Shown: piece by piece, positions 6,501 to 55,430 of the stretch
How positions within the stretch are numbered: the first letter of the stretch is position 1
Layout of the letters: every line of letters begins with the position of its first letter
Assembly (NCBI GenBank): GCA_026390775.1
Contig: JAPLFF010000007.1
Location: forward strand, 1,488,001 to 1,552,000
DNA from: Ignavibacteriales bacterium
GTDB taxonomy: Bacteria > Bacteroidota > Ignavibacteria > Ignavibacteriales > Melioribacteraceae
Reading direction: 5' to 3'
Length of the DNA: 64,000 bases
Translations under genes and position numbers: made by a program
The notes under the pieces: generated by a model
Told to the model about the DNA's origin: nothing
Databases searched by the model: none
The model's input: the letters and a program-made list of their open reading frames with translations, nothing else

Positions 6501-6870
6501 TGCTGTTATAACAGTTAAAGCAAGTGATGCTGCTAATAATGATTTCTTTGCTTACAGCTTTGCAGTTAATGTTGGATTGACAGATGTTGAAGGTGAGGCT
6601 ATTCCGACAGAGTTCGCACTCTATCAAAACTTCCCGAACCCATTCAACCCGACAACCAATATTAAGTTTGCATTACCAAAAGAATCTAGTGTTACACTTA
6701 AGATCTATAACGTATTAGGTCAAGAAGTTGAAACATTGGTTAACAAAGTAATGAATGCTGGATATCATACAGTTGATTTCAATGCAACAAAACTCTCAAG
6801 CGGTATGTATATCTACAGAATCCAAGCTGGTGACTTTGTACAAGTTAAGAAGATGTTATTGATGAAGTAA
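535..6870 (+). CDS. Giant repeat-rich secreted surface protein with T9SS sorting domain
   Basis: 2111 residues, with RBS AAGGAG just upstream of the ATG. A signal peptide occupies about residues 1-27 (hydrophobic FLFTIVLSSLSFA, then Q). Residues 30-100 look like the start of a parallel beta-helix (GDDSYTGVNETNSPLGTGPKKTI). The next ~1800 residues are Gly/Ala/Thr/Asn-rich short strands (for example MGGNATIAGSLTLSGGTF), as in filamentous adhesins and polymorphic surface proteins. About 1925-2010 resembles an Ig/BIG2-like domain. Residues 2014-2111 are the T9SS type A sorting domain (NFPNPFNP, IYNVLGQEV, SSGMYIYRI, terminal KKMLLMK). Expected fate: Sec export, then T9SS secretion and cell-surface anchoring or release. 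The ligand or function is unknown. The gene appears monocistronic, ending at a strong terminator. Confidence 0.85.
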   Translation: MNFKNLLKFSTLAFLFTIVLSSLSFAQVRYLNSTDGDDSYTGVNETNSPLGTGPKKTIEGAYSAFPTNSTVYMKAGEYHYNQITAVDANGASGGNDDNGVQFDSPAKNMTFIIQTYNSSSVVYLNGTVAGAFVVNAPGKTIKFQGADPATQSVSINNGPFFNTATNAITLTAGTLDVSGLLSFNVGGSVTTMTRTGGTLVGSFTYSAAARTMLYNSAAADAQTSGGELQTALSGASDLNIAKTGGSLSITQNLTMTTGGTLRNTGTGSATISGTVTIAGAAAAPSTISLTGTGALTLSNTVTISSRNETWGTFINKNGAGTLTISGALNINHGGTTGSDLDDGAAYGAWAGGTNIVKNNNTTGKLSLSGLITFGKYTDGVPADWYVYVTLSNIAGATTEIGNTTSVWYGKIENDGAAGKINLVGNLTMKSNAGALVGPLSNNSASGIIALGGNTLKIATAAAGAIRNAGSITSTAAGLLDFNNPSTSGTITFSGTGAVPNIQTDGTQSVDMTPTTTVNGNVTVNATAGILTLSGVTSLTGNISLVGGQAVTNLGGITAIGGNVSLTLGTLTMGGNATIAGSLTLSGGTFVMGGNVTLSGNYVQNSGTLNFNGANTLDCKQNFTRTTGNVTNAAGVLQFSSGGQGQILAGGANFRVYTLTITGVGTGVTLSTGSVEVVRDCNIAANTSLQLASLNINMVGAGGTITNGGQIFSSGLGSVIFSGPDAGGVGTTGSVSTIGGTGKYSNIEIRLTDASDVVTCAANVVSWTGRLGFTRGGIDNSAGGAQLNPIDGAASIVINMSNYAATGFPQGKPYAGGANSFNTTGSFDVLNVPYDLTYWGNITTGAKVAGNEFKTLYVRDLSVTSTGATATDFVEFGAAYTMVGNLSIPAGSQLNLNGSVLTASKTGAAHNVAGLLSSTALADAFTLTGDGTVTGSTTAADVATIENLIVNTSTVSAAYTFNNFHAFGKTGTTSTFNMTAGTATLNMYQTAAPVPSPLYNFVQSGGTVVLANNARISTGIAASQFSLTGGTFDFANYNLWFSVAGTFSATGGTFLTTGATTGGYLQFRTTGATFNSGTVAVPRVDIDPLLAGTITVTLGGNSVISDIFNNNMTTSTLATGGNVLTLSGTGPVKQWNTSGLYTGAAGLFYITGPVTMNLGVGTIIPNLQVDNTTTGTFTLVDNDGVAGTVPDLTVGLGTAGVFTMTSGVINMQNIDILLVGTTAGIPGDAFSYAGGTINATTPAASLTTVPLVDNSYGELTFAAGAAQSFNTVAGLVIPNLTINAASPVTYTGGGVAGAPTFTVSKYLKQGANIVMGTAGNLVFSDGAWIEMVAGTMDLVPAFGTSINYVYNTAGAFVTGKELTTSATKIQQFWNAPGGANAVTLNAATTVNNELRLVSGNLLTTAVKTMTMAANTLVTRVDGKINVAATTGANLLGGPYNLTYINTAATTTLSGEYPTTNTILKLTVATNIAVPTVGGAAAPLALHASRSCGDFELVTDGAAVPQNGTQFDLAGFTLTVTNVPTATLTRGALVSYANAGGFYTYGTLAVAGTLTQTANASIKNVIVTAATATLAGSFGTEDYEGTGAAPNVSATLPTMTVTGNATVAGFNGNLTVNGNTTINGAYTGGSLAAGGNVTVGTGGSFAAATNLTFFGSVDATLTIPTAGATVGAVTFNKTTGTIYKITLAGGNLAATGTVTFTNGLFIVPDPLIFNIPAPLLGGGQGFTHVVAATDLSHVVGLLSKTLRNTTGLLAGATETRSEFPIGSLNRYRKVALTFPSQFGVPTVPNITIIANHVDASPTGAVELPITNGVAQGIDIARYPAFYWNIKTSPTSVSNVFFDLELGATGFSDYDDINNVRIIRRHGTNTGADQSNQWLFQGDLAAMLAGTLVYDNELNNGIPSIINRNSNAGLRSGGAIFTLGLKSNMSIKTAIPKQYLVLSAGVKSYLLTNLFKGNIGVLSYTATSSNNTIATVAVVGSSLAVTPVAIGDAVITVKASDAANNDFFAYSFAVNVGLTDVEGEAIPTEFALYQNFPNPFNPTTNIKFALPKESSVTLKIYNVLGQEVETLVNKVMNAGYHTVDFNATKLSSGMYIYRIQAGDFVQVKKMLLMK

Positions 6871-6945
6871 TCAGCAATTGGCTATAAGCTTTTAGCTATT
6901 AGCAAACAAAGCCCCGCCTATGGCGGGGTTTTGTTTTTTAAACAT
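6325..6945 (+). repeat. 3' cassette copy 1 (Ig-like domain, T9SS domain, stop, terminator)
   Basis: This stretch aligns without gaps (constant offset of 1702 bases) to 8027-8647. Similarity runs through the Ig-like and sorting domains, the stop codon, 40 bases of non-coding DNA and the terminator. It stops abruptly after the shared TTTTTTAAACAT. The non-coding part is identical, so the pair reflects recent duplication or gene conversion rather than protein-level convergence. Confidence 0.85.
6911..6939 (+). terminator. Rho-independent terminator of the adhesin gene
   Basis: Stem CCCCGCC (6912-6918), loop TAT, GGCGGGG (6922-6928), then TTTTGTTTTTT. It lies 41 bases after the stop codon. A G/C-only stem in otherwise AT-rich DNA makes this a confident call. 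Confidence 0.9.
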
Positions 6946-7063
6946 CTTTGGAATATTTGTTTGAAAGACATAAAGTATTCCCTAAATTATCTTTAGTAGA
7001 AAAAATGAACTAAAAACATTTTCATTTTTTTAGAAATACCGAATTAATTTTTAGGTGATTAAT

Positions 7064-8572
7064 ATGAAAAAATATTTTTTATTAATTTATTTTATGTCAC
7101 AATGTTTAACCGCACAGTGGGTTGCAACAAATGCAGCTTTCCCGGGTGATATTAAATGTATAGCATCTTCCGGGACAAATATTTTTATTGGGGCATATAG
7201 CGGGGGAGTATATTTATCAACAGATAATGGAAATAATTGGTCTAATGCTTCGGCGGGATTAAATAATACTCTCATTAACTCGATAGCTGTCAATAACACA
7301 AATATTTATGTGGGTACTTACGGCGGTGGTGTGAACCGCCGTTCGACAGACAATGGAGCTATGTGGGAACCTGTTCTGAGCGGAATGGAGAGTAATAAAA
7401 ATATTTATTCACTAGCGACCATAGGAACAAATGTTTTTGCTGGAACTGAAAGCGGAGGTGCTTTTATATCAACTAATAATGGTAGCAATTGGACACAAAT
7501 TATAAATGGTTTAACTGATAACCGTGTTTATTCTTTTGCAGTCAATGGCGGGAACTTATATGCTGGTACATATTACGGTGTTTTTCATACTACAAATCAA
7601 GGTACTAATTGGACAGAAGTTAGCAATAACTTGAATATAAATATTCTTGCTCTTGCTATTAGTAACTCTAAGATTTATGCAGGTACTGCAGGCGGTGGTG
7701 TTTATTTGTCTGATGACAATGGTGGCGGATGGACAAACGTAATAAATGGATTTACCAATCAAGTTCACTTAACTATAAATGCGCTTGCAGTTAGTGGTTC
7801 CAATATCTATGCGGGTACTGTTTTAGGTGGTGTTTATTTAACTATTAATAATGGGGCAAGCTGGTCACAAGTGAACACTGGATTTCCAAATAGTATTACT
7901 ATTTCATCTTTAGCCGTTATTGGTTCTTACTTATTTGCAGGATCAGGAGGCGGTTCTGGAGGAGGCGGTGGAATAATCTGGAGAAGACAATTGTCGGAGA
8001 TGCAGTCAAATATTTCTGTAAAGAATGCAATTCCAAAACAATGGTTAGTTATATCTGCTGGCTCTAAGACAATTTCCTTAACAAATACTTTCCAAGGAAA
8101 CATTGGTACATTATCATACACAGCACAATCATCAAATAATACAATTGCTACTGTAGCTATTGCTAGTTCAACATTAACAGTTACACCGGTTGCAATTGGT
8201 GATGCTGTTATAACAGTTACAGCAATTGATGCTGCTAACAATGATTTCTTTGCATACAGTTTCCCTGTTAATATTGGTTTGACAGATGTTGAAGGTGAGG
8301 CTATTCCGACTGAGTTCGCACTCTATCAAAACTTCCCGAACCCATTCAACCCGACAACCAATATTAAATTTGCATTACCAAAAGAATCTAATGTTACACT
8401 TAGGATCTATAACGTATTAGGTCAAGAAGTTGAAACATTGGTTAATAAAGTAATGCCGGCTGGATATCATACTGTTGATTTCAATGCTACAAAACTCTCA
8501 AGCGGTATGTACATCTACAGAATCGAAGCTGGTGACTTTGTACAAGTTAAGAAGATGTTATTGATGAAGTAA
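7064..8572 (+). CDS. Secreted BNR/beta-propeller protein with T9SS sorting domain
   Basis: 502 residues from ATG 7064. The in-frame GTG at 7055 is rejected because it lies inside the ribosome site AGGTGATT. A short signal peptide (KKYFLLIYFMSQCLTAQ) precedes about six repeats of the form IY-A-GT-GGGVYLSTDNG-W. These are Asp-box/BNR blades, as in sialidase-like and photosystem-assembly-factor-like beta-propellers. A Gly-rich linker (GSGGGSGGGGG) leads to an Ig-like domain and a T9SS type A sorting domain almost identical to that of the protein upstream. It should be exported by Sec and T9SS. Asp-box propellers often bind glycans or proteins; no catalytic residues can be assigned. Its 3' third is a copy of the preceding gene's end. 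Confidence 0.85.
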   Translation: MKKYFLLIYFMSQCLTAQWVATNAAFPGDIKCIASSGTNIFIGAYSGGVYLSTDNGNNWSNASAGLNNTLINSIAVNNTNIYVGTYGGGVNRRSTDNGAMWEPVLSGMESNKNIYSLATIGTNVFAGTESGGAFISTNNGSNWTQIINGLTDNRVYSFAVNGGNLYAGTYYGVFHTTNQGTNWTEVSNNLNINILALAISNSKIYAGTAGGGVYLSDDNGGGWTNVINGFTNQVHLTINALAVSGSNIYAGTVLGGVYLTINNGASWSQVNTGFPNSITISSLAVIGSYLFAGSGGGSGGGGGIIWRRQLSEMQSNISVKNAIPKQWLVISAGSKTISLTNTFQGNIGTLSYTAQSSNNTIATVAIASSTLTVTPVAIGDAVITVTAIDAANNDFFAYSFPVNIGLTDVEGEAIPTEFALYQNFPNPFNPTTNIKFALPKESNVTLRIYNVLGQEVETLVNKVMPAGYHTVDFNATKLSSGMYIYRIEAGDFVQVKKMLLMK

Positions 8573-8647
8573 TCAGCAATTGGCTATAAGCTTTTAGCTA
8601 TTAGCAAACAAAGCCCCGCCTATGGCGGGGTTTTGTTTTTTAAACAT
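8027..8647 (+). repeat. 3' cassette copy 2 (Ig-like domain, T9SS domain, stop, terminator)
   Basis: Partner of 6325-6945 at a constant 1702-base offset. Differences are scattered point changes in the coding part. The tail from the last codons through the terminator is identical as far as I can read. A homogenised module with unrelated N-terminal passenger regions suggests that passengers are swapped onto a common secretion tail. Confidence 0.85.
8613..8640 (+). terminator. Rho-independent terminator, copy of 6911-6939, possibly bidirectional
   Basis: CCCCGCC (8614-8620), TAT, GGCGGGG (8624-8630), then TTTTGTTTTT. On the other strand the hairpin is followed by TTTGTTTG. It could therefore also end the convergent peptidase transcript, which stops at 8651. 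Confidence 0.9.
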
Positions 8648-8650
8648 TAC

Positions 8651-10111
8651 TTACATCTTAGAAATATGAAGTGCAGTCTTAAAAATTAATTTCGTAATTG
8701 CCTCTAAAAGATTTTGATTTAGTGTTTCGGATTTATCGGAGAGCATGTGGAGATGTTTATAGCTATTTGTTGTAACAAAGTATAAAGTTTGTATTCCCTT
8801 TTCGAAGAATGGTTCTGCATCAGCACCGCCGCCCTTCCATGTTCTTGTTACTAAAAGTTTATCGTTCTCGTTATCAATCTGTTTTGCAATGTTCCAAAGC
8901 GCTTGTGCACTTTCTCCGCCGCCTATCTGAATACTATCTCCATAACCGACACAATCAAGATTTACCATTGCTTTAACTTTTTCTTTTGAGAATTTCATAT
9001 TTTCTGAAAAATATTTTGAACCGTACAATCCCTGTTCTTCACAAGCGAAAAAGACAAAAATTATTGAACGCTTCGGTTTTTCTTTAGTGTTAGAAAATTC
9101 ACGTGCAATTTGAAGTAAAGCAGCCGAACCTGATGCGTTATCGTTAGCGCCTGGGAAATAAATTTTACCCGCTTGACTACCAACATGATCAAGATGCGCA
9201 CCGATAATCAAATACTCGTTCTTTAGATCGGGATCGCTTCCTTCGATTATTCCAACAACATTTACTACTTCTTTTTCTTTTTCATATTTAGTGTGAACTT
9301 CAAGATCAACTTTTGGAACGAGCTGAATGGAATATGGTTTTTTTGTTGAATCAATTAATGTCTGCAAATCTTTTAATGTGCGGTTACTTCCGATAAATAT
9401 TTCATCTGCAACAGGCAGATCAATATGTATTTCCGGAAAATTTATCATTTGTTCACCTTCGCCATGTATAACACTTCCAATCGGTCTCTGAGGTTCTGCA
9501 TCGTTAGGAAATGAAACGAACAATATTCCAATAGCACCATGATTAGCCGCAACAATTGCTTTCTCACGCGGATTTCCATTTGTAAAATTTTTTCCGTCAA
9601 TATTCCATTTTGGATTGTACTTAAATGCTAAAACAATTTTTCCTTTAACATCTATTCCGGAATAATCATCATAACCCAACTCAGGCTGAGATAAACCATA
9701 CCCGCAAAAAACTACGGAAGCTATAAACTTTCCCGCACCGGTAAATCCACGATAAGCGTAATCATCACCAATTTTATAATTGGTCGTCTTTCCATCTTTA
9801 ATAATAGAAAAATGTTCGGGAGCTAATATTTCATTGTATTCAACTTTTAATTTTTGAAAATAGTTATCATCACCGCCGGGTTTGAAATTTAACTTGGCTA
9901 ATTCTCCTGCTATAAAATTCGCAGCTTTGGTGTAACCGTCGCTTCCCGACAGTCTTCCTGCAAGTTCTTTGCTTGCCAAGTAATTAACAGTTTTCATTAA
10001 TTCTTCTTTTTTGATAGCACTAACTCCACTTGATTCTTGTGCGCTAAGAAATAAAGAAGGAAGGAATACAAATGCTAATATGGCTGCTGGTAAGCGGAAA
10101 TATTTTTTCAT
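8651..10111 (-). CDS. Secreted M28-family zinc metallopeptidase (aminopeptidase-like, with PA domain)
   Basis: 486 residues from the ATG at 10111, which has AAAGGA upstream; an earlier in-frame ATG at 10135 lacks a good RBS. A signal peptide (KKYFRLPAAILAFVFLPSLFLSAQ) indicates export. A protease-associated domain spans roughly residues 120-230. The M28 catalytic set is visible: GAHLDH (zinc His and nearby Asp), PGANDNASG (bridging Asp), ACEEQGLYGS (Glu pair), NLDCVGYGD (Asp), and a late HLHMLSD (zinc His). The family removes N-terminal residues from peptides using two zinc ions. It is probably periplasmic or surface-located and acts in peptide scavenging. It is monocistronic and convergent with the T9SS gene. 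Confidence 0.88.
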   Translation of the reverse strand: MKKYFRLPAAILAFVFLPSLFLSAQESSGVSAIKKEELMKTVNYLASKELAGRLSGSDGYTKAANFIAGELAKLNFKPGGDDNYFQKLKVEYNEILAPEHFSIIKDGKTTNYKIGDDYAYRGFTGAGKFIASVVFCGYGLSQPELGYDDYSGIDVKGKIVLAFKYNPKWNIDGKNFTNGNPREKAIVAANHGAIGILFVSFPNDAEPQRPIGSVIHGEGEQMINFPEIHIDLPVADEIFIGSNRTLKDLQTLIDSTKKPYSIQLVPKVDLEVHTKYEKEKEVVNVVGIIEGSDPDLKNEYLIIGAHLDHVGSQAGKIYFPGANDNASGSAALLQIAREFSNTKEKPKRSIIFVFFACEEQGLYGSKYFSENMKFSKEKVKAMVNLDCVGYGDSIQIGGGESAQALWNIAKQIDNENDKLLVTRTWKGGGADAEPFFEKGIQTLYFVTTNSYKHLHMLSDKSETLNQNLLEAITKLIFKTALHISKM

Positions 10112-10387
10112 GATATATCCTTTGATTTTATTCATAAGTTGTAACTCTTCAATGAAGCTGTCAAACGAGAGTTCTTATGGAAAATTATAAATAATATTTT
10201 ATGAATAAAAAAGGAGATTTGCCTTCAAGCTTTATCGTACCATGGGAACCAATCAACATGATTGTGTGCTTGTTGTAAAATGTAAGGACTTTTTTCGTTG
10301 ATAAGACTGTTAGGATTTTTATTTTGTGATATCATTAAATAATACTTCTCAGATTGATCGTATAACTTTAAATATTAATAGTAGTTG

Positions 10388-10672
10388 TTATGAGTGTTGT
10401 TTACGACCTCTTGTAATTGAACCGACAACAAGTGCAAACAAAGCTGAACCAATTATCGACCAAATAACGGGAAAGTCTTTTCCTTGAATACTAATAGTAT
10501 AAAACATTGGTAATTCAAGTTCTTTAGCAATTAATGGACCGAGCCAGGCGCCGACAAATCCAACAATTATTGAAACAAAACATCCACCCAAAGAATAACC
10601 TGCAAGACTTTGACCGATTGCACCGCAAATGGAAGCAATCAACAGAAGAAGAAGAAATCCAAATAATGACAT
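10388..10672 (-). CDS. GlsB/YeaQ/YmgE-family small membrane protein
   Basis: 94 residues with three hydrophobic segments. They are rich in small residues: GFLLLLLIASICGAIGQSLAG, a Gly-rich FVSIIVGFVGAWLG, and VIWSIIGSALFALVVGSI. The protein ends in a basic TRGRKQ tail. This is the layout of the transglycosylase-associated (GlsB/YeaQ) family, which is often stress-induced and has no settled biochemical role. It stands alone. It is divergent from the thioredoxin-like gene, with about 180 bases of AT-rich DNA between them that probably hold both promoters. Confidence 0.8.
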   Translation of the reverse strand: MSLFGFLLLLLIASICGAIGQSLAGYSLGGCFVSIIVGFVGAWLGPLIAKELELPMFYTISIQGKDFPVIWSIIGSALFALVVGSITRGRKQHS

Positions 10673-10849
10673 ATAAACCTCGATGATGTTCTACAAAATT
10701 AATCTAAACAAAAAAATATTAACAATAAAGTTGTGATTGATGATTTGTTCAACATGTTTCTATTAATTAAAATAATATTATTTTTGTAATAACCAACTTA
10801 ATATTAATAATATTCAAATTAATTTTTGATTAAGAAATTAGAGGAGAAT

Positions 10850-11335
10850 ATGAAAAAAGTATCATTTATTGTTTTTGCATTAATTGTTATTCTTACGACA
10901 AATTTAATTGCTCAAGATAAATCAGAAAATACAACACCTAAATTTGATCCGGCAAGAGATTCTTTTAAGGATTTGAAAGAAGTAATAGTTGATGCGCAAA
11001 CTACAGGTAAAAGAATTTTGCTTGATGTTGGAGGGGAATGGTGTATTTGGTGTCATCGTTTAGATGGATTTTTCGATGCACACCCGGAACTCAAGAATTT
11101 TATGCATGATAATTTTGTGGTGCTTAAAGTAAATTGGAGTCCGGAAAACAAGAACGAAAAATTTCTTTCTCAGTATCCAAAGGTAGCCGGGTTTCCGCAC
11201 ATATTTATTCTAGAAATTGACGGAAAGTTTTTATTCTCTAAGAATACGGGCGAGTTAGAAAAAGAAAAATCTTATGATGCAGAAAAGATCATGAATTTCT
11301 TAAAAGAATGGGCACCAAAGAAAGAAAAATCATAA
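10850..11335 (+). CDS. Exported thioredoxin-fold protein
   Basis: 161 residues from ATG 10850, just after RBS GAGGAGA; an upstream TTG at 10826 is less likely. A signal peptide (KKVSFIVFALIVILTTNLIAQ) implies a periplasmic location. The core has GEWCIWCHRLD, a CxxC active site in the style of the DsbD-gamma/thioredoxin_7 group. VAGFPHIFIL follows with the cis-Pro loop. These proteins reduce or isomerise disulfides in the envelope. The WCIWCH motif suits a reductant-fed thioredoxin-like protein rather than a DsbA oxidase. No partner gene is adjacent. Confidence 0.82.
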   Translation: MKKVSFIVFALIVILTTNLIAQDKSENTTPKFDPARDSFKDLKEVIVDAQTTGKRILLDVGGEWCIWCHRLDGFFDAHPELKNFMHDNFVVLKVNWSPENKNEKFLSQYPKVAGFPHIFILEIDGKFLFSKNTGELEKEKSYDAEKIMNFLKEWAPKKEKS

Positions 11336-14505: not shown

Positions 14506-15306
14506 ATGATAATCGTTTTTAGATTTTTGAGAGAAGTTATTAACAAACGGTATTTGATCTATTCGCTTGTAAAAAGGGATTTTCAGAATCAATATACCGG
14601 CTCATACTTTGGTGTTATTTGGAATTTTATTCAACCAATTGCTTTTATTTTCATTCTTTGGTTTGTACTAAATATGGGCTTCAATTTGCGAAGTATTGAA
14701 AATACAAATCATATTTTTTGGTTAATATCCGGAATGATCTGCTGGCTCTATTTTTCTGATGTATTTTCAACTTCTACTCAAATCATTCAGCAATATTCAT
14801 TCTTAATTAAGAAAATGGATCTAAGTTTAGGAATTCTTCCGATCGCAAGAATAATAAGTGCCTCGATAAACCATCTCATATTTATTTTTTTGACCGTCGT
14901 CTTTGGATTGTTTTTGGGAATAAGCCCAAGTTTTTATTTCATTCAGATTTTTTACTACGCATTGGCTTTACAGGTACTTCTTTTAGGATTATGCTGGCTT
15001 GCATCATCAACAAGTATTTTTATCAAAGATGTAAATAATATTGTCTTAATAATTGTGCAATTTGGATTTTGGTTAACACCTGTTTTTTGGAGTATTGATA
15101 ATGTTCCGCAAAATTATCAGTGGATAGTTAAACTTAATCCGCTATATTATTTAGTAACAGGCTACAGAGATTCTTTAATTTATAAGATACCATTTTGGCA
15201 GAAACCTCTTGAAACGATTTATTTCTGGGTATTCTCACTAATTGTCCTGCTCATAGGTACTGTAGTTTTTAGAAGATTACGTCCCCACTTTGCCGAGGTT
15301 ATCTAA
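14506..15306 (+). CDS. wzm: ABC-2 type polysaccharide exporter, permease subunit (Wzm-like)
   Basis: 266 residues with an amphipathic start (LIYSLVKRDFQNQYTGSYFGVIWNFIQPI), a hallmark of the Wzm/TagG/KpsM permeases, and six hydrophobic segments. It is followed immediately by its ATPase: the stop codon ends at 15306 and the next ATG is at 15307. Wzm moves undecaprenyl-linked polysaccharide across the inner membrane. The glycan made by this locus is therefore probably exported by the ABC-dependent route rather than Wzx/Wzy; I see neither Wzx nor Wzy here. Confidence 0.9.
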   Translation: MIIVFRFLREVINKRYLIYSLVKRDFQNQYTGSYFGVIWNFIQPIAFIFILWFVLNMGFNLRSIENTNHIFWLISGMICWLYFSDVFSTSTQIIQQYSFLIKKMDLSLGILPIARIISASINHLIFIFLTVVFGLFLGISPSFYFIQIFYYALALQVLLLGLCWLASSTSIFIKDVNNIVLIIVQFGFWLTPVFWSIDNVPQNYQWIVKLNPLYYLVTGYRDSLIYKIPFWQKPLETIYFWVFSLIVLLIGTVVFRRLRPHFAEVI

Positions 15307-16695
15307 ATGGGCAGTAATATTATTGTCAAACTTGAGAATGTTTCGAAGTATTATAAATTGTATGATTCACCGAAAGGCCGGTTAAAAGAAGCTCTTCATC
15401 CATTCCGAAAAAAATATCATAAAGAATTTTACGCGTTGAATAATATCAGCTTTGAGCTAAAGAGAGGGGAGTGTTTAGGTGTTATCGGTAAGAACGGTAT
15501 GGGCAAGTCAACTCTCCTGAAACTTATTGCTCATATAATAGAACCGAGTTTCGGCACTATTCAAGTCAATGGTACAGTATCTGCACTATTAGAATTAGGG
15601 ACTGGTTTTAATCCCGAATTCACCGGACTTGAGAATATTTACTTTTATGGAACAATACTTGGTTTTAAGAAACAGGAAATCGAACGTAAAGTTAAAGAGA
15701 TAGTAGATTTTGCTGATATAGGAGAGTTTATCGATCAGCCCGTTAAAACTTACAGTAGCGGAATGTTCGTAAGATTGGCGTTTGCTGTTCAAACTAGCTT
15801 GAAGCCAGATATTTTAATTGTGGACGAAGTATTAAGTGTAGGTGATATATTTTTCCAGCAAAAATGTCATTCTAGAATTGAAAAATTATTGAGTAAAGGT
15901 GCTTCTTTAATAATTGTTTCTCACGATATGCAATTAATAGAAAAATATAGTACTAACGTTGTTCTTTTAGAAAACGGAACAAAAATATTCTTTGGGCATC
16001 CTCACAAAGCCATTCAGAAATATTTTAGTCTATCCGATAATACAGAATTCAAAATTAACTATAGTATTTCTGATGAAGATTTGTTTCCAAATAATGACAA
16101 AGAGAAAAAGGTTGATATTTTGGATAATTGGCTGCCCGCCGATTATTTTATACAGACATGGAATCTTGAACATTTTGGAAATAAAGCTTCTGCAGAAATT
16201 ACTAGGTTTTGTGTGTGTAACTCCAATAATAAACCTTCCGCTTATTTTAATATTGGTGATAAAGTATTTTTTTACTATGAGGTTGAGGTTAAAAAAGAAA
16301 TTGGAATACCCGTGGGCGCAGTGATTTTAACGAATGCACGCAATATTGTTGTTCATGGTAAAGATACTTTGCAATATCCCGATGCAAATAAAAAAGCGAT
16401 TAATTTCGTCAAAGCAAATTCCACGATTCGTTTTATCCAAGAATTCAAATTAAATATAGCTTACGGTGAGTATACTTTTTCCATTGGTTTCGGCACTGTT
16501 GATCCTAATAATATTACCAAGGTTAACACTGTAGACTATTCGGAGAGAGAAATTATCATAAACTCCTTAACAAGAATTCCTCAAGCAGGCAAATTAATTG
16601 TAAAGACAGGAAACGTAAATGCAAATCTACTTTTCCACGGTTATGCCGATCTTGAGGGTGATTTTAATGTTTTCATCAATCCATTAATTAGGTAA
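15307..16695 (+). CDS. wzt: Polysaccharide ABC transporter ATP-binding subunit with Wzt C-terminal domain
   Basis: 462 residues. The ATPase half has Walker A GKNGMGKST (61-69), signature YSSGM (~150), Walker B ILIVDEVLSVGD (~171) and H-loop VSHD (~203). Residues ~290-462 form a Wzt-type carbohydrate-binding beta-sandwich (FYYEVEVKKEIGIPVGAVI, ... GEYTFSIGFG). In characterised systems this domain recognises the terminal modification (methyl or phosphate) of the O-polysaccharide and couples chain termination to export. That is consistent with the many methyltransferases nearby. The last ~85 residues are duplicated in the small ORF that follows. Confidence 0.9.
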   Translation: MGSNIIVKLENVSKYYKLYDSPKGRLKEALHPFRKKYHKEFYALNNISFELKRGECLGVIGKNGMGKSTLLKLIAHIIEPSFGTIQVNGTVSALLELGTGFNPEFTGLENIYFYGTILGFKKQEIERKVKEIVDFADIGEFIDQPVKTYSSGMFVRLAFAVQTSLKPDILIVDEVLSVGDIFFQQKCHSRIEKLLSKGASLIIVSHDMQLIEKYSTNVVLLENGTKIFFGHPHKAIQKYFSLSDNTEFKINYSISDEDLFPNNDKEKKVDILDNWLPADYFIQTWNLEHFGNKASAEITRFCVCNSNNKPSAYFNIGDKVFFYYEVEVKKEIGIPVGAVILTNARNIVVHGKDTLQYPDANKKAINFVKANSTIRFIQEFKLNIAYGEYTFSIGFGTVDPNNITKVNTVDYSEREIIINSLTRIPQAGKLIVKTGNVNANLLFHGYADLEGDFNVFINPLIR

Positions 16696-16982: not shown

Positions 16983-17564
16983 ATGCACACATATCATGCT
17001 CCTAGAGGTAAGTATAGAAAATTGTGTAAAGTAATAGCAAACTTTCTCACTCCTGTTCAACATGATTGGTCCAAGTGGGAACGCAAGAATGGTTGGTTAA
17101 GAAAAACAGGGATGAAAATTGGGAAAAAAGTAGTTATAGATCATAACTTTCATTGTCTAACCGGTCTAGAAGAGAATATTGTAATTGAGGATTTTGCTAC
17201 ATTACATTGCGGATTAAGGATATGGAATTTTAATAGGATAACAATTGGTGCATTTTGTATGTTTGCTGCCGATGTAACATTGCTCAATGGTGGTCATGAC
17301 ATTAATTCATTTGAACCCTTCTCAGGACCATTAGTAATAGGTAAGGGGTGTTGGATAGGAAATGGAGCTAGAATAGTAGGTCCATTAACTATTGGTAATA
17401 ATGCAATTATTGGTGCTGGTGCAGTAGTAATTGATGACGTACCCGAAGGTGCAGTAGTAGCAGGTGTTCCGGCACGTGTGATTCGCAATCGTGAACTTCC
17501 AGAAAAAGTATGGCATATGGAAGGAAAATATTTTTCACCCAAAACATTTGAGCTTTTAAGCTAG
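16983..17564 (+). CDS. Left-handed beta-helix O-acetyltransferase (maltose/NodL-type)
   Basis: 193 residues with RBS GAAGGAAAAAG before the ATG. Hexapeptide repeats run from about residue 60 to 160 (IGKGCWIGNGARIVG, TIGNNAIIGAGAVVIDDVPEGAVVAGVPARVI). The catalytic His is in NGGHD. Family members use acetyl-CoA to O-acetylate sugars. In this cluster it most likely decorates the glycan. The N-terminal QHDWSKWERKNGW stretch is not typical of WbpD/WlbB-type N-acetyltransferases, so I do not assign it to the diamino-uronic acid pathway. Confidence 0.8.
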   Translation: MHTYHAPRGKYRKLCKVIANFLTPVQHDWSKWERKNGWLRKTGMKIGKKVVIDHNFHCLTGLEENIVIEDFATLHCGLRIWNFNRITIGAFCMFAADVTLLNGGHDINSFEPFSGPLVIGKGCWIGNGARIVGPLTIGNNAIIGAGAVVIDDVPEGAVVAGVPARVIRNRELPEKVWHMEGKYFSPKTFELLS

Positions 17565-17571
17565 TGATACT

Positions 17572-18411
17572 ATGGTTTATGAGTTATTCTCTTTCATTTC
17601 AGGATTTCTTCCTAAAGATTGCACTTTTATAGATGTAGGCGCATATCATGGAAGTCTAACAGAAGGCTTACTAAAGGCTTTCCCTAATTCGAGAGGAATT
17701 CTCTTTGAGCCTACCTTAGATTCATTTAATTACTTAATGAAAAAATTTTCTTATACCAATAACCTAAAAATGTTTAACTCAGCGCTTGGGGATAAAATAC
17801 AGGAAGCAGAATTCTATTTATTAGAAGATGGAACCCAAAATAGTATTTTGCAGTTACTGAACAAAAACGTAAAATTTAATAAAACTAAAATAAAGGTTGA
17901 TACATTAGATTCGGTGCTAGGATCAGTAAACTTTTTGTCTCATGTCGACTTCATAAAAATAGATACACAGGGGAATGATCTTTCTGTTTTGCGCGGTGCC
18001 AAGGAGACTATTCTTAAAAATAGTCCCATAGTCTTAACCGAGGCGATCTTTATTCCATTGTATAAAAATCAGTGCTCGTACTTTGACCAATTCAATTTTA
18101 TGAATAATCTTCACTACACATTAGCTGGGATTTATAATATCCATTATTGTGAAAACGGACAAATTGCTTTTGCAGATCTTCTTTTTATCCCTCCATCAAT
18201 AAGGGAAATCGTAAATTCGAAAATTTTGTCGAAGCAGTCATTCTTTTGTGCTGATAATAATTTGTTGGCTGAAGAAAATAGAACCCTGAAATCAATATGT
18301 GAAGAAAGACTCGAATTGATTAATCGATTGAGCGAGGAAGCCGAGCGAAGATTGGAAATAATTAATCAACGGGATTCCGAAATAAAAAAGTTGAAGGATA
18401 TTCATAAGTAA
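17572..18411 (+). CDS. FkbM-family SAM-dependent methyltransferase with coiled-coil tail
   Basis: 279 residues. The FkbM core (about 10-205) shows FIDVGAYHGSLTEGLLKAFPNS (SAM loop), FEP, NSALGD, VDFIKIDTQGNDLSVLRGAKETI, and LTEAIFIPLY. The family O-methylates sugars and other substrates. Residues ~230-279 are charged and helical (NRLSEEAERRLEIINQRDSEIKKL), suggesting a coiled coil. That coil may pair with the one in the next protein, whose ATG overlaps this stop by one base. Probable role: methylating a residue of the exported glycan. Confidence 0.82.
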   Translation: MVYELFSFISGFLPKDCTFIDVGAYHGSLTEGLLKAFPNSRGILFEPTLDSFNYLMKKFSYTNNLKMFNSALGDKIQEAEFYLLEDGTQNSILQLLNKNVKFNKTKIKVDTLDSVLGSVNFLSHVDFIKIDTQGNDLSVLRGAKETILKNSPIVLTEAIFIPLYKNQCSYFDQFNFMNNLHYTLAGIYNIHYCENGQIAFADLLFIPPSIREIVNSKILSKQSFFCADNNLLAEENRTLKSICEERLELINRLSEEAERRLEIINQRDSEIKKLKDIHK

Positions 18412-20579
18412 TGGGTGCAATTAATTTTTCGTTAGATTTAAATTTAGTTAAGAATCTTAAAAAAGTACTTCCTTTAGATATTTTTGTTGAAACAGGGACA
18501 TTTGAAGGGGATACAATTGAAAATGTTAAAGACCTATTCAGCGAGATTTATTCTGTTGAACTTTCAGAAGAATATTATAACAAAGTTAAAAAGAGATTTC
18601 AGTCAAAAGATGCAATTCACCTGTATTTGGACAGTTCGGAAAAGTTTTTAAAAAAGATCCACCCGGTGCTGAAAGAAAAATCAGTTCTTTATTGGTTAGA
18701 TGCTCATTGGTGCGTTGCAGATAAAACCGCAGGAGAAAAATCTCAGTGCCCTTTGTTAGATGAGTTAGTGTCTATTCGGTCTCTCAACAAAAATAGTATA
18801 ATAATAATTGACGATGCGCGGTTGTTAATAGCCCCTCCTCCATCTCCCCATGAAATTACTCAATGGCCGGATTTTAATTCAATCATTGCGTTATTTAGAA
18901 AATTGAGTACTGTACATGAAACGATAATATTAAACGATACGATTATTTTTTATCCAAAATCAATACGCGAAACAATTAAGGATTATGCCTATGAAAATTC
19001 CATCAACTGGCTGACAGTTCTAGACAAGTCCAGAGATTATGATACTCTTCTGAAACAACAGAAAGATATGTTGAAGCAAATGCAGGAAAAGGATAAAAAA
19101 ATTATAGTTTTATCCGATGATTTGGTGGGTAAAGAAAAGGAAATAGATGATTTATTAGATGAAATAAAAGATAAAGACGATAAGATAATTTCGCTGTCAG
19201 ATGATCTAGTTGGAAAGGAGAAAGAAATAAACTCATTACTAGATGATCTGAAAGAGAAGAAACAGACTATTGTATCATTATCTGATGATCTAATAGAGAA
19301 GGACAAGAAAATATTTGCTTTATCAGATGATCTAATAGAGAAGGACAAGAAAATATTTGCTTTATCAGATGATCTAATTATTAAAGAAAACACAATTACT
19401 AAACTTTCAAGTGAATTAATTGACAAGGAAAGTGAGATTGTTTTCTTATCTGAAAGTTTAAGCATTTTGAAAAAACGTCTCTCTACTCCAATATGGGGAC
19501 TAATAACTTTGTTCCAATTTCATTTTCCAAAGCTTTGGGATTATATCTACAAAAAGAGAACAGGTATAACAGAGAAAAAAGAAACAGTTAAAAAGGAACA
19601 GGAACTAGAAGATTCAGCAATTCATGAGCCTGAACACAAGAATGTAGAAATTGACGAACCGGAAAAGAAGGGAACAAAAGCTAAAAAGAATAAGCTGAAA
19701 TTTTTTACACCAAGATTAGGCCAATTAAATCATTATGAACCCACAGAATTATTAATTTCACCAAAATATTTAAATACAAAATTAATCGGAGATCCTCTTC
19801 GACTGTCAATTGTAACTCCATCATATAACCAAGCAGAATTTTTAGAACGTACTATTAAAAGTGTTCTCGACCAAAATTATCCTGATTTGGAATATGTAGT
19901 GCAGGATGGAGGTTCTACTGATGGCAGTATTGAAATATTAGAAAAGTATAAGGCATTTCTAAAAAGTTACAGCTCTGAACGTGATAAAGGTCAGGCGGAT
20001 GCTATTAATAAAGGATTCAAACTCTCTACAAGTGATATAATGGCCTACTTGAATTCCGATGATATTTATTTACCCGGCACCTTCAATTACATTATTAATT
20101 ATTTCAATACTCATTCTTCGGTTGATGTTGTTTATGGCCATCGTATTTTAATTAATGATTGTGATAAAGAAATTGGTCGTTGGATTTTGCCAAGACATGA
20201 TAAAAAAGTTCTAGCGTGGGCAGATTTTATTCCTCAGGAAACTTTATTTTGGCGGCGCAGAATTTGGGAGAAGGTAGGCGGTAATCTTAATGATGAATTT
20301 AATTTTGCATTGGATTGGGATTTACTATTAAGATTTCAAGAAGCCGGAGCAATAATTAAAAGACTTCCGCGATTCCTGGCTGCATTTAGAGTTCATCCGC
20401 AACAAAAGACTTCTACACATATATCTTCATTGGGTGAATCAGAAATGAAAATAATAAGGGAAAAATACATCGGAAGAAATGTTTCTCATGCTGAAATAAA
20501 CAAAAATATTTTTAATTACCTGGCTAAATCGGAGGTATATCATAAACTATATCAGTCGGGGATTTTAAGGAATAAGTAA
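18411..20579 (+). CDS. Three-part protein: methyltransferase-like domain, coiled coil, GT2 glycosyltransferase
   Basis: 722 residues. Residues 1-185 look like a Rossmann methyltransferase (VETGTFEGDT, YSVELSEEYY, YWLDAHWC, IIIIDDAR). Residues ~215-345 form a coiled coil of 14-residue units (LSDDLIEKDKKIFA), two of them encoded by an exact 42-bp tandem repeat. Residues ~385-430 are a charged linker. Residues ~455-700 are a GT-A family 2 transferase (SIVTPSYNQAEFLERTIKSVLDQ, QDGGSTDGS, AYLNSDD as the DxD equivalent, DWDLLLRF). The coiled-coil spacer resembles the molecular rulers of chain-length-controlling methyltransferases such as WbdD. A role in capping or measuring the glycan is inferred from that layout. 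Confidence 0.75.
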   Translation: MGAINFSLDLNLVKNLKKVLPLDIFVETGTFEGDTIENVKDLFSEIYSVELSEEYYNKVKKRFQSKDAIHLYLDSSEKFLKKIHPVLKEKSVLYWLDAHWCVADKTAGEKSQCPLLDELVSIRSLNKNSIIIIDDARLLIAPPPSPHEITQWPDFNSIIALFRKLSTVHETIILNDTIIFYPKSIRETIKDYAYENSINWLTVLDKSRDYDTLLKQQKDMLKQMQEKDKKIIVLSDDLVGKEKEIDDLLDEIKDKDDKIISLSDDLVGKEKEINSLLDDLKEKKQTIVSLSDDLIEKDKKIFALSDDLIEKDKKIFALSDDLIIKENTITKLSSELIDKESEIVFLSESLSILKKRLSTPIWGLITLFQFHFPKLWDYIYKKRTGITEKKETVKKEQELEDSAIHEPEHKNVEIDEPEKKGTKAKKNKLKFFTPRLGQLNHYEPTELLISPKYLNTKLIGDPLRLSIVTPSYNQAEFLERTIKSVLDQNYPDLEYVVQDGGSTDGSIEILEKYKAFLKSYSSERDKGQADAINKGFKLSTSDIMAYLNSDDIYLPGTFNYIINYFNTHSSVDVVYGHRILINDCDKEIGRWILPRHDKKVLAWADFIPQETLFWRRRIWEKVGGNLNDEFNFALDWDLLLRFQEAGAIIKRLPRFLAAFRVHPQQKTSTHISSLGESEMKIIREKYIGRNVSHAEINKNIFNYLAKSEVYHKLYQSGILRNK
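19284..19367 (+). repeat. Exact 42-bp tandem repeat encoding coiled-coil units
   Basis: Two identical 42-base units, 19284-19325 and 19326-19367, each encode DDLIEKDKKIFALS (14 residues, two heptads). A third unit begins at 19368 and diverges after about 11 bases. More diverged copies of the 14-residue unit flank it from about 19100 to 19450. Exact identity at the DNA level points to recent expansion, a way of changing coiled-coil length in steps of two heptads. Confidence 0.9.
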
Positions 20580-21562: not shown

Positions 21563-21572
21563 AGAGGTGTTT

Positions 21573-22451
21573 TTGAAAAATTTGACTGTTATTATTCCAG
21601 TATATAATGAAGAAACTGCGATAGAGAAAACTTTAATGGAATTAACGATTTATTCTGAAAAGAATAATTGGGAAGTATTAGTTGTAAATGATGGTTCAAC
21701 TGATAACACAAAAAATATTCTTAACAGTATTTACTCTATTAAGGTAATTTATCACCCCTATAATAAAGGCTACGGAGCGGCTTTGAAGGCAGGAATAAAA
21801 AACGCTACAACAGATTTAATATGTTTTTATGATGCTGATGGCCAACACAATCCAAATGATGTCGAACAATTAATTCTTAATTTAGATAACTACGATATGT
21901 TGGTGGGAGAGAGACAGAAGGATTCTCATAAAGAGTGGGTTCGTAGACCGGGGAAATGGTTACTGTCCAAAGTAGCAAATTTTCTTACCGGAAGAAAAAT
22001 ACCGGATTTAAATTCTGGATTAAGACTCGTTAAGAGAAATGTAATATTAAAATTACTTCATTTATTCCCGGATGGATTTTCTTTTTCAACAACAAGTACA
22101 ATAGCTTTTTTGAATTTGGGTTTAAATGTTGGTTATTACCCCATTAAAACTAATAAAAGAATAGGCAAAAGCTCCGTTAGGCAATTAAAGCATGGTTCAA
22201 ATGTATTACTATTAATTCTGCGATTAATAATTCTTTTTAACCCCCTTAAGGTGTTTGTTCCTATTAGTTTTTTAATATTTATGCTTGGAATAATTTATGA
22301 GGTAATGCAGGGAATTGTCATGATTGAATCCGGGCATGAGAGATTAATACCCGGAGCATTTTTTTTAATGATAACAGGTATATTAATTTTCTTTTTTGGA
22401 CTTGTCGTTGATCAGGTTTCCGAGATGCGTAAGCATCAATTTTACGAGTAA
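21573..22451 (+). CDS. DPM1-like GT2 glycosyltransferase with C-terminal membrane helices
   Basis: 292 residues from TTG 21573. The in-frame GTG at 21567 is part of the ribosome site AAAGAGGTG and cannot be the start. The GT-A core has VIIPVYNEETAIEKTL, VVNDGSTDNT, YKGYGAALKAGI-like GYGAALKAG, and CFYDADGQHNP (DxD). Two hydrophobic segments end the protein. Such enzymes load a sugar onto polyprenyl phosphate, providing a lipid-linked donor for GT-C transferases such as those in this locus. Confidence 0.82.
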   Translation: MKNLTVIIPVYNEETAIEKTLMELTIYSEKNNWEVLVVNDGSTDNTKNILNSIYSIKVIYHPYNKGYGAALKAGIKNATTDLICFYDADGQHNPNDVEQLILNLDNYDMLVGERQKDSHKEWVRRPGKWLLSKVANFLTGRKIPDLNSGLRLVKRNVILKLLHLFPDGFSFSTTSTIAFLNLGLNVGYYPIKTNKRIGKSSVRQLKHGSNVLLLILRLIILFNPLKVFVPISFLIFMLGIIYEVMQGIVMIESGHERLIPGAFFLMITGILIFFFGLVVDQVSEMRKHQFYE

Positions 22452-26423: not shown

Positions 26424-27389
26424 ATGTACAAAAAGAAAACTATTTGCGTTATAGTCCCAGCCTATAATGAGGAAACTCAAATTGGGAAAGTAATTACAAC
26501 TATGCCCGCTTTCGTTGATAAGATTGTTATTATTGACGATAAAAGTAAAGACGGTACAGTGAAAGTTGTCAAAGGTTTTAAGAAGAATAATGACAAAATT
26601 GTTTTTATCCAGCACGAAAAAAATCAAGGTGTCGGCGGCGCAATTGCAACTGGTTATAAATGGGCAAGAGATAATGAGTTTGATGTTGCCGTTGTAATGG
26701 CTGGCGATGGGCAGATGGATCCTGATGATTTGGAAAATGTTATTAATCCTGTTGTAAGTGGAGAAGTTGATTTTACAAAGGGTAACCGCCTTATTACTGG
26801 GGAAGCGTTTAAAAAAATACCCAAGATCAGATACTTTGGAAATTCAATACTCTCGTTTTTAACTAAAATTGCTTCCGGCTACTGGCATGTCGCCGATTCA
26901 CAATCTGGGTATACTGCAATCAACAAAAAAGCATTGCATATGCTTAATTGGGATTCTATGTACAAACGTTACGGACAGCCGAATGATTTATTAGTAAGAC
27001 TTAATATATATAATCTCTGTGTAAGAGATGTTGAAGTAAAACCGGTTTATAACATTGGTGAAAAATCCGGTATTAGAATCTGGAAGGTGATATTTACTAT
27101 AAGCCTGTTATTACTCAAGTTATTTTACTGGCGCTTGGCTGCAAAGTATATAATTCGTGACTTTCACCCATTGGTTTTCTTTTATGCTCTGGGATTTTTT
27201 CTTATTACCGTTTCTTTTCTCCTTGGTATAAGACTGCTCTATTTTTTCTTCGTTTTTAATACGATTCCAAGCATGAATAGCATAGCTTTTCTTTTTACTT
27301 CGGTGACCGGTCTACAAAGTATCTTCTTTGCAATGTGGTTTGACATGTTTTATAATTCTGATCTTAAGGGTAAGAAAAACGGTGAATAG
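26424..27389 (+). CDS. DPM1-like GT2 glycosyltransferase with two C-terminal membrane helices
   Basis: 321 residues. VIVPAYNEETQIGKV, IIDDKSKDGT, GVGGAIATGYKWA and VVMAGDGQMDPDD (DxD) define the GT-A core. SGYTAINKKAL matches the polyprenyl-phosphate glycosyltransferase loop. Two hydrophobic helices (about 245-310) end the protein. Probable role: transfer of a sugar from a nucleotide donor to undecaprenyl phosphate. It overlaps the deacetylase gene by 8 bases. Confidence 0.82.
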   Translation: MYKKKTICVIVPAYNEETQIGKVITTMPAFVDKIVIIDDKSKDGTVKVVKGFKKNNDKIVFIQHEKNQGVGGAIATGYKWARDNEFDVAVVMAGDGQMDPDDLENVINPVVSGEVDFTKGNRLITGEAFKKIPKIRYFGNSILSFLTKIASGYWHVADSQSGYTAINKKALHMLNWDSMYKRYGQPNDLLVRLNIYNLCVRDVEVKPVYNIGEKSGIRIWKVIFTISLLLLKLFYWRLAAKYIIRDFHPLVFFYALGFFLITVSFLLGIRLLYFFFVFNTIPSMNSIAFLFTSVTGLQSIFFAMWFDMFYNSDLKGKKNGE

Positions 27390-28373: not shown

Positions 28374-29555
28374 ATGAGAATTTTGCAGTTTACTTCTTCA
28401 TTTCCTTTAGACGAACAAGATTATGGTGGGAATTTTATTCGTGAGCTTATCGAGGAACTTTCTTCTTCCTTTGAATTTTTCGTATTAACCCCCGACACTC
28501 CCACAACAAAGAATCATGAATCCATCGATAATTACGAAATTATTCGATATAAATATTTTTTCAAAAATAAACAAATTCTCGTTTGTAACGATTCAATTAT
28601 CCAGAATTTAAAGAAGAATAAATCCTACTATTTTGTTTTACCACTATTTTTTATTTCCTCGTTTATAAGTTTAATAAAAATTGTCAATCAAAAAAAAATC
28701 AATATTGTTCACGCTCACTGGATTTTTCCTCAAGGTTTTGTAGCTGTACTGGCAAGATTTTTTTCTAAGCAAAAATTCAAAATTCTAATTACATCGCATG
28801 GAACCGATCTGGAATTGTTGAATAATTTTTTTTTACGACAACTTATTAAATTTACTTTAAAAAAGTGTGAATGTATTAACCCAGTCAGTGACTATTTAAA
28901 GATGAAAATTATTGAAGTAGCTGACATAGAATCCAAAATTCACGTTATTCCTATGGGAACGAATAGGAATCTTTTCGGAAAAAAGGGAGAACAAAATCTT
29001 AAAAACATCAATGTAGATGAAAAATATATACTATCTGTAGGAAGACTTTCTGAAGGAAAGGATTTAGAGACTCTTATTAGAAGCTTTAAAGGACTTAGTG
29101 AAGGATACTCTGATTTATTTTTATATATAGTAGGCACAGGTAATGAATTAGATAAATTGAAAGAATTAGTAAATTCACTAGAACTTAGTAATAAAGTAAG
29201 ATTTTTGGGACAGGTAAAGCGCGAAAGACTTGTGGAACTGTATAACAAAGCACAAGTTCTTGTTTCCACATCACTTAGTGAAGGATTTGGTCTTGTTTTT
29301 ATTGAAGCACTATTATTAAGGTGCCCGGTTATTGCAACTAATGTCGGAGGGGTTGGTGAAATAATACTTCATCAAGAGACGGGTATTTTAATAAACACGA
29401 AACAACCTGAAGAATTGATGAATGCTGTTAAAAGTTTAATGAAAGATGAAATGTTAAGGAAAATGCTTATTGAAAATGGTTACAAACATGCAATTAATAA
29501 TTACACGTGGGAATCAGTTGCAATAAAGTTTAAATCATTATATATGTCCCTTTGA
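28374..29555 (+). CDS. Glycosyltransferase, GT4 family
   Basis: 393 residues, GT-B fold. The N-terminal half has LQFTSSFPLDEQDYGGNFIREL and IVHAHWIFPQGFVA. The donor-binding half has ILSVGRLSEGKDLETLIRSF, VRFLGQVKRERLVELYNKAQVL, and SLSEGFGLVFIEALLLRCPVIATNVGG, which includes the EX7E motif. It should be a cytoplasmic retaining transferase extending the lipid-linked glycan. The exact sugar is unknown. Confidence 0.86.
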   Translation: MRILQFTSSFPLDEQDYGGNFIRELIEELSSSFEFFVLTPDTPTTKNHESIDNYEIIRYKYFFKNKQILVCNDSIIQNLKKNKSYYFVLPLFFISSFISLIKIVNQKKINIVHAHWIFPQGFVAVLARFFSKQKFKILITSHGTDLELLNNFFLRQLIKFTLKKCECINPVSDYLKMKIIEVADIESKIHVIPMGTNRNLFGKKGEQNLKNINVDEKYILSVGRLSEGKDLETLIRSFKGLSEGYSDLFLYIVGTGNELDKLKELVNSLELSNKVRFLGQVKRERLVELYNKAQVLVSTSLSEGFGLVFIEALLLRCPVIATNVGGVGEIILHQETGILINTKQPEELMNAVKSLMKDEMLRKMLIENGYKHAINNYTWESVAIKFKSLYMSL

Positions 29556-55097: not shown

Positions 55098-55430
55098 TTA
55101 CCAGCGTCTTCCGCCGCCGCCGCTTCCGCCGCCACGATTTCCACCGCCGCCACGATTTCCACCACCACCACCGCCGCGTCTGTTATCGGTTTTAGGGCGA
55201 GCTTCGTTAACAACAATTTTTTTACCTTTAAGTTCTTTGGTGTTAAGAGCTTCAATTGCTTTTGTTCCTGCAGTTTTGTCATTCATTTCAACAAATGCAA
55301 AACCTTTGGATTCGCCAGTGAACATATCACGAATTATTTTAACGCTTGTAACAGCGCCGAACTCTTTGAAAAGTTCTTCGAGATCTTGATCGCTTGCTTG
55401 TTGAGATAAATTACCTACATAGATATTCAT
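55098..55430 (-). CDS. Glycine-rich RRM RNA-binding protein
   Basis: 110 residues after RBS AAAGGAG. MNIYVGNLSQQASDQDLEEL (RNP-2 in IYVGNL) and GESKGFAFVEM (RNP-1, KGFAFVEM) form one RNA recognition motif. A tail of RGGGGGGNRGGGG repeats ends in RRW. Such small proteins bind single-stranded RNA and are often cold-induced in bacteria. It is probably monocistronic, ending at the 54968-55004 hairpin. It is divergent from a 26-codon frame with a good RBS at 55519-55599. Confidence 0.9.
   Translation of the reverse strand: MNIYVGNLSQQASDQDLEELFKEFGAVTSVKIIRDMFTGESKGFAFVEMNDKTAGTKAIEALNTKELKGKKIVVNEARPKTDNRRGGGGGGNRGGGGNRGGGSGGGGRRW

Follow-up and report, generated by a model that had tools for sequence, protein, structure and literature searches.

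The 64,000-nt stretch analysed here (the window; nt 1,488,001 – 1,552,000 of contig JAPLFF010000007.1 from an Ignavibacteriales bacterium) carries a gene in which a methyltransferase-like domain, a coiled coil and a family 2 glycosyltransferase (GT2) domain are joined in one chain. The favoured explanation, held at a probability of roughly 0.7, is that its product is a single-chain terminator, ruler and glycosyltransferase for a glycan exported by the neighbouring Wzm/Wzt transporter. The exported glycan is probably an O-polysaccharide. An initial annotation of the region had proposed this three-part architecture, and each part was recovered here: a fold of the S-adenosylmethionine (SAM)-dependent methyltransferases, 21 heptads of coil, and a GT2 domain matching PF00535. 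Fused genes of this kind occur at 14 distinct loci (the window, L005/L080, L022–L031, L048 and L079). The features of the window that bear on the argument are:

14506-15306, + strand: Wzm-like ABC-2 glycan export permease (Pfam PF01061, 4.8e-18)
15307-16695, + strand: Wzt, an ABC ATPase (PF00005, 2.3e-21) with a C-terminal Wzt_C carbohydrate-binding domain at about 16189-16563 (PF14524, 2.6e-13)
16983-17564, + strand: hexapeptide-repeat acyltransferase (PF00132, 1.8e-11), an optional partner with relatives in the fused loci L025, L027 and L048
17572-18411, + strand: FkbM methyltransferase (PF05050, 1.4e-16; TIGR01444, 3e-26) with a short, coil-like C-terminal tail
18411-20579, + strand: fusion open reading frame (ORF), 722 aa, intact and complete
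18411-19022, + strand: N-terminal class I SAM methyltransferase-like domain (residues 1-204; AlphaFold2 model, VIA-align, invariant residues), proposed chain terminator
19023-19463, + strand: coiled coil of 147 residues, or 21 heptads (residues 205-351), proposed ruler
19278-19378, + strand: 42-bp tandem repeat, 2.4 copies, 98% (Tandem Repeats Finder, TRF), with an exact two-copy register at 19284-19367
19464-19562, + strand: post-coil segment, hydrophobic/aromatic and then basic, possibly in contact with the membrane; the most hydrophobic 18-mer of the linker starts at residue 359
19563-19709, + strand: charged linker of low model confidence (predicted local distance difference test, pLDDT, <50 over residues 385-461)
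19710-20576, + strand: PRLGxL motif and GT2 domain (PF00535, 4.2e-27), proposed polymerase or polymerase subunit

Pfam yields no family above its cut-off for the first 206 residues of the protein, and among 31 aligned N-domain members Methyltransf_24 (Pfam) is touched by seven, the best at 3.3e-4. The AlphaFold2 model of the domain (pLDDT 88.7, predicted template modelling score 0.85) has, by both Foldseek and VIA-align, the fold of the class I SAM-dependent methyltransferases. The Foldseek matches listed, starting at E 1e-6, are all SAM-dependent enzymes that share the fold, and the best VIA-align match is catechol O-methyltransferase (COMT; 5p8w, Z 15.1, root-mean-square deviation 3.0 over 152 aligned residues), in a tie with an Anaplasma O-methyltransferase, TrmR and other O-methyltransferases lying within 1 Z. 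Residues invariant in all 31 N domains include E27, G29, T30, E50, D97-A-H-W100, C113, P114, E118 and D134-D135. A profile of the domain gave 19 weak matches to PDB sequences at E 1. Fifteen of them cover the SAM region (12 named methyltransferases and three uncharacterised proteins), the other four are of other kinds and align elsewhere, and no WbdD chain is among the 19. In the model D97 and D134-D135 terminate strands 92-96 and 130-134, respectively. This D...DD spacing may be compatible with the metal site of COMT-like enzymes, in which the ligands are an aspartate following strand 4 and a D-D/N pair following strand 5. The structure prediction that the initial annotation had suggested as a check thus supports a methyltransferase-like N-terminal domain, the fold being of SAM type and the motifs invariant, in place of a domain without a SAM site. 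No kinase family is found among the Pfam matches at 0.1, and the methyltransferase is followed immediately by the coil, from about residue 200-205.

The coil of the window protein runs for 147 proline-free residues between the anchors DKSRD and ILKKRLSTP and is composed of 14-residue units (LSDDL...). Its a/d hydrophobicity is 0.71, against 0.20 elsewhere, a contrast reached by none of 2000 shuffles, and the full-length model has helices at residues 200-301 and 316-357. An antisense ORF (19037-19465), which lies opposite the coil, was not accepted as a gene. Two 42-bp coil units had been described as exact copies. This is correct in the shifted register, where nt 19284-19325 are identical to nt 19326-19367 (the exact self-match at shift 42 extends over 53 bp), but when the repeat is read in the LSDDL register a single base separates the two copies (98%). 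The remaining unit pairs within residues 234-331 share 50-71% of their bases. One 14-residue unit has been duplicated recently. The array is the sole TRF array of score >=90 in the 64-kb window and, since coil arrays also recur in six of the 14 fused loci, it is considered to be beyond chance.

At the other end of the protein, the GT2 match covers residues 466-590, and the motifs N548-S-D-D551 and D635-W-D637 are invariant in 11 aligned members (L024 is cut near its C-terminus). By the Eisenberg hydrophobicity scale, the most hydrophobic 18-mer falls at the end of the coil or beyond it in 10 of the 14 fused members (the exceptions are L025, L028, L030 and L048). The 30 residues that lead up to PRLG carry a net positive charge in 12 of 14 members, against -3 in both L022 and L023. 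These properties do no more than suggest a membrane contact by the post-coil segment.

The family was assembled by scanning a species-genome collection with six short peptide patterns, two or more of them from the coil. This gave 31 loci, of which 11 are fused, 18 have the N domain without GT2 in the same frame, and two, L051 and L052, with matches confined to the GT2 region, were dropped. As the patterns included coil sequence, the set of 14 fused loci is biased and does not amount to a census. One of them, L027, is cut by a contig end just inside GT2. The record titles span Melioribacter (including L022 and L023, both Melioribacter sp.), Ignavibacteria, Acidobacteria, Gammaproteobacteria, Rhizobium, Myxococcales, Legionellaceae, Proteobacteria, SAR116 and Desulfobacterales; many are metagenome-assembled genomes (MAGs), so that binning errors are possible in these assignments. 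Mean identity among ten members (excluding L027 and the other three loci of Melioribacter) is 48% for the N domain and 56% for GT2. Pairwise distances in the two domains are correlated (r 0.85, 13 members, none of 5000 permutations as good), and remain so in ten members without the three other Melioribacter loci (r 0.52, 6 of 5000 permutations as good), which indicates that the N and GT2 domains are inherited together. Over 13 members the stretch from N domain to PRLG varies about 4.5-fold, from 65 to 292 residues.

In samples of genomes, the N domain was found at E 1e-20 in 4/395, 2/347, 3/321, 3/292, 2/247 and 3/247 (the seed genome being counted each time), and these samples contributed one additional fused member, L079. 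The new loci L070–L074, L077 and L078 have no family GT2 in the short stretch examined, beyond which the long open frames of L072–L074 continue. None of the plasmid records covers 80% of the L026 protein, and a plasmid search with the window N domain returned one match of 28% (E 1e-15). Neither the plasmid search nor the genome samples yielded a second strain of any carrier species. Among viral contigs of IMG/VR there are three distant relatives (L083, L084 and L085), matching N-domain residues only. An Allorhizobium (Rhizobiaceae) plasmid, L056, carries a stand-alone family GT2 (nt 10049-10903) right after a gene annotated as an ABC transporter ATP-binding protein, and this perhaps represents the unfused state.

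The fusion gene belongs to a same-strand run consisting of Wzm, Wzt with Wzt_C, hexapeptide acyltransferase, FkbM, the fusion gene, an epimerase, a GT2 and further glycan genes, and its start overlaps the FkbM stop codon (TAATG). Additional glycosyltransferases are encoded in the window (e.g. nt 21567-22451, 26424-27389 and 28374-29555). A whole-genome search of the source genome found a single place for Wzt_C and a single place for the N domain, both in the fusion operon. Across the family, 13 of the 14 fused loci have a Wzt homologue upstream, and 12 have a Wzm homologue (L025 has no Wzm match). The remaining locus, L024, has neither in its 2.2 kb of upstream sequence (a truncated contig), and an FkbM partner is found there. 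All ten fused-locus Wzts scanned (those of L023, L079 and L080 were left out) have Wzt_C at 1.4e-4 or better (Pfam); eight pass the cut-off, while L025 and L026 fall below it. The WbdD-like layout proposed for the gene is supported, as is a transporter setting of the kind in which WbdD-type terminators occur: Wzm/Wzt are encoded in its operon, and the association extends through the family. In L079 two terminator-like fusions stand behind Wzt. The first is an FkbM-GT2 fusion of 673 aa (nt 5533-7551); an FkbM gene comes next, and after it the methyltransferase-coil-GT2 gene.

Of the 18 unfused N-domain loci, two (L033 and L035) encode a long Wzt and, as a protein of its own, a GT2, like the split WbdD/WbdA format. 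The Wzt of L038 is short, the match in L043 is a weak ABC one, and the other 14 are without a Wzt match in the flanking DNA examined. In L035 the unfused N-domain protein (nt 8001-9497) has a 293-residue coil tail with a 198-bp repeat (3.0 copies, 87%), and its gene has another N-domain gene and stand-alone GT2 genes as neighbours.

In the six members with both coil anchors, which were picked after the sequences had been inspected, the spans are 147, 154, 154, 196, 210 and 210 residues, or 21, 22, 22, 28, 30 and 30 heptads. The four distinct lengths give three independent differences, each a multiple of seven. Whole-heptad spans alone are no proof of a ruler, because any coil that keeps its register is expected to behave in this way. 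The coil arrays lie inside the target gene in the window, L022, L023, L048, L031 and L080 (TRF score >=90), with periods of 42 or 84 bp, to which L023 adds one of 168 bp. Misassembly of long arrays is possible in MAGs. Outside the target gene, arrays of this score number one, in L048, over 12 loci (219,915 bases). In a second set of 20 loci they were found in L037, L043 and an unrelated coil ORF of L079 (nt 1442-2560); the heptad-multiple repeats of this last ORF show that such repeats are not special to rulers. The Melioribacter loci L022 and L023 keep 30 heptads each, and L024 and L027 keep 22 each at 62% N-domain identity, so that change in coil length looks occasional and not fast.

In the proposed mechanism the post-coil segment would keep the GT2 end near the membrane, and GT2 would extend a lipid-linked chain. 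The coil, through which the protein presumably oligomerises, would space the methyltransferase from GT2; with a helix rise of 1.485 Å per residue its 147 residues would measure about 22 nm if fully helical. Once the growing chain reached the methyltransferase its non-reducing end would be O-methylated and growth would stop, and the O-methyl cap may be the mark recognised by the Wzt_C domain of the exporter. Coil length, and hence modal chain length, would evolve as whole-heptad units, frequently 14 or 28 residues long, are duplicated or lost in frame. More tentatively still, the 14 loci may belong to a family of one-chain rulers that has spread horizontally and in which lengths step by whole heptads, often through 42-bp duplication, between conserved ends, giving a dose series across species (21, 22, 28 and 30 heptads) of glycan length set by one gene.

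Several observations weigh against a terminator-ruler. Eight of the 14 members do not have both anchors, and with roughly set ends the spans of three of these eight are multiples of seven. In L028 and L029 the span set in this way is only about 50 residues, and a single-register heptad test fails for L025, L028, L029 and L030 (67 to 1196 of 2000 shuffles as good), so that a long rod is not established in every member. By query length the N domain reaches Foldseek TM-scores of only about 0.4 to 0.5, and the full-length model is poor (mean pLDDT 57.9). A single GT2 could be the whole polymerase only for a simple repeat, and would otherwise need other glycosyltransferases of the locus. Lastly, seven unfused loci encode N-domain proteins with coil-like tails of at least 60 residues (L032, L033, L034, L035, L037, L039 and L045), and within the flanking DNA examined a Wzt match is present only in L033 and L035; the contigs of L032 and L034 are short (7.0 and 4.4 kb), and in L037 the coil protein comes after a 1136-residue multi-glycosyltransferase.

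The five proteins with coil-like tails but no Wzt match in that DNA would suit a methyltransferase that decorates internal or branch sugars, with the coil as an oligomerisation tether joining two enzymes and its length near-neutral and drifting. The wide range of the stretch from N domain to PRLG points the same way, as do the heptad-multiple repeats in the unrelated coil ORF of L079. A drifting tether is nonetheless unlikely, given the Wzt upstream of nearly every fusion gene, the equal coil lengths within two pairs of loci, one of them well diverged in the N domain, and a layout that matches experimentally tested rulers. Somewhat different is the suggestion that GT2 is an adapter or initiating transferase coupling initiation to termination, the true polymerase being a docking glycosyltransferase of the locus, a scheme compatible with a ruler. 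The fusion protein has a single GT2 domain and other glycosyltransferases are present in the window, but the C-terminal glycosyltransferase modules of the O7 and O12 coil proteins (see below) are the polymerase or part of it, and GT2 is a well conserved partner across the fused loci; an adapter role is thus doubtful.

The initial annotation had further supposed that coil length could be tuned by replication slippage at the 42-bp repeats, and in its fast form this would make the gene a contingency locus for chain length. The exact two-copy repeat of the window and the arrays of 42 bp or multiples in six fused loci, among them L048 and L031 from outside Melioribacter, would favour it. However, the window has only about 2.4 copies, its other unit pairs have diverged, and lengths are identical in L022/L023 and in L024/L027. 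To judge from these comparisons, slippage tuning between strains is somewhat disfavoured, and fast switching of this kind seems very improbable. The single-chain terminator-ruler remains the preferred reading, with coil length apparently changing now and then by duplication or loss.

The upstream FkbM protein was also said to end in a coil, and a short coil-like C-terminal tail is indeed present. Near this C-terminus (window nt 18268-18408), a C.ERL.LI motif is found in nine of ten FkbM proteins examined from genes neighbouring the N domain, the window protein included and several from other phyla; weak FkbM matches in L070, L074 and L077 lie outside these ten. A second ruler was rejected because the tail is short and its motif conserved, and the tail is perhaps more like an assembly tag. 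Elsewhere in the window, two ORFs near the glycan locus (nt 41097-45005, 1302 aa, and nt 36104-37846, 580 aa) have no Pfam match at 0.001, and G+C-rich tandem repeats of 15/18 bp (CCGCCGCCA type) occur at nt 55108-55171.

The most useful aspect of the family is its natural, heptad-stepped length series between conserved ends. The ruler principle for bacterial surface glycans has been tested with engineered coils of WbdD, in which edits of the coil shift the modal chain length (PMC5082667). Because the ends and anchors are conserved and the rod differs by whole heptads, the relation of rod to chain length, and its evolution, become testable by comparison of species. With a kinase-less methyltransferase and a single GT2 in one chain, the protein would moreover represent a reduced form of the machinery, of use in making glycans of defined length in vitro. 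The accessible literature gave no description of such a kinase-less methyltransferase-coil-one GT2 fusion, or of a natural heptad-stepped series of coil lengths. Of earlier reports on natural or slippage-driven variation of ruler coils, none was on point by title except PMC5082667, and the survey likeliest to be relevant (Mann, Kimber and Whitfield 2019, Glycobiology, cwz066) is known by reference only.

A single-protein ruler had been thought to be new, a claim that is withdrawn here because two such proteins have been published, both from Klebsiella. Kelly et al. (2024; PMC11231755), where the coil is named as a characteristic marker of the terminator-ruler strategy, describe O7 ORF6 as methyltransferase, kinase, carbohydrate-binding module (CBM), coil and two GT2 modules in one chain, and O12 WbbB as a single enzyme for polymerisation and termination. 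WbbB of Klebsiella O12 and Raoultella resembles the window protein in having polymerising and terminating domains and a coil ruler in one chain, but its terminator is a beta-Kdo transferase and it has two polymerase glycosyltransferases (PMC11231755). The analogy with WbdD of E. coli O9a and O8 is well supported: an N-terminal terminator is followed by a coil and a membrane-associated C-terminal end (PMC11231755, PMC5082667, PMC3482155), and in O8 the WbdD is methyltransferase-only (PMC3482155). In WbdD of O9a coil length sets chain length, a role that the coil of the window protein may share; WbdD differs in that its polymerase, WbdA, is a separate protein, and that of O9a also has a kinase. 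The methyltransferase of E. coli O101/O162, required in O101 for the O-methyl end-cap, has a C-terminal coil that its authors suggested to be a ruler, but it is not fused to a glycosyltransferase (PMC13168486). Also close is O7 ORF6, likewise encoded in a Wzm/Wzt locus, with an N-terminal methyltransferase, coil and C-terminal GT2 in one chain; it differs in its kinase and CBM-like domain before the coil, its two GT2 modules and its methyl-phosphate cap (PMC11231755), whereas in the window protein a methyltransferase of about 204 residues leads straight into the coil and GT2 is single. The one-protein ruler is thus best regarded as known in principle, and the set of modules found here as new in detail.

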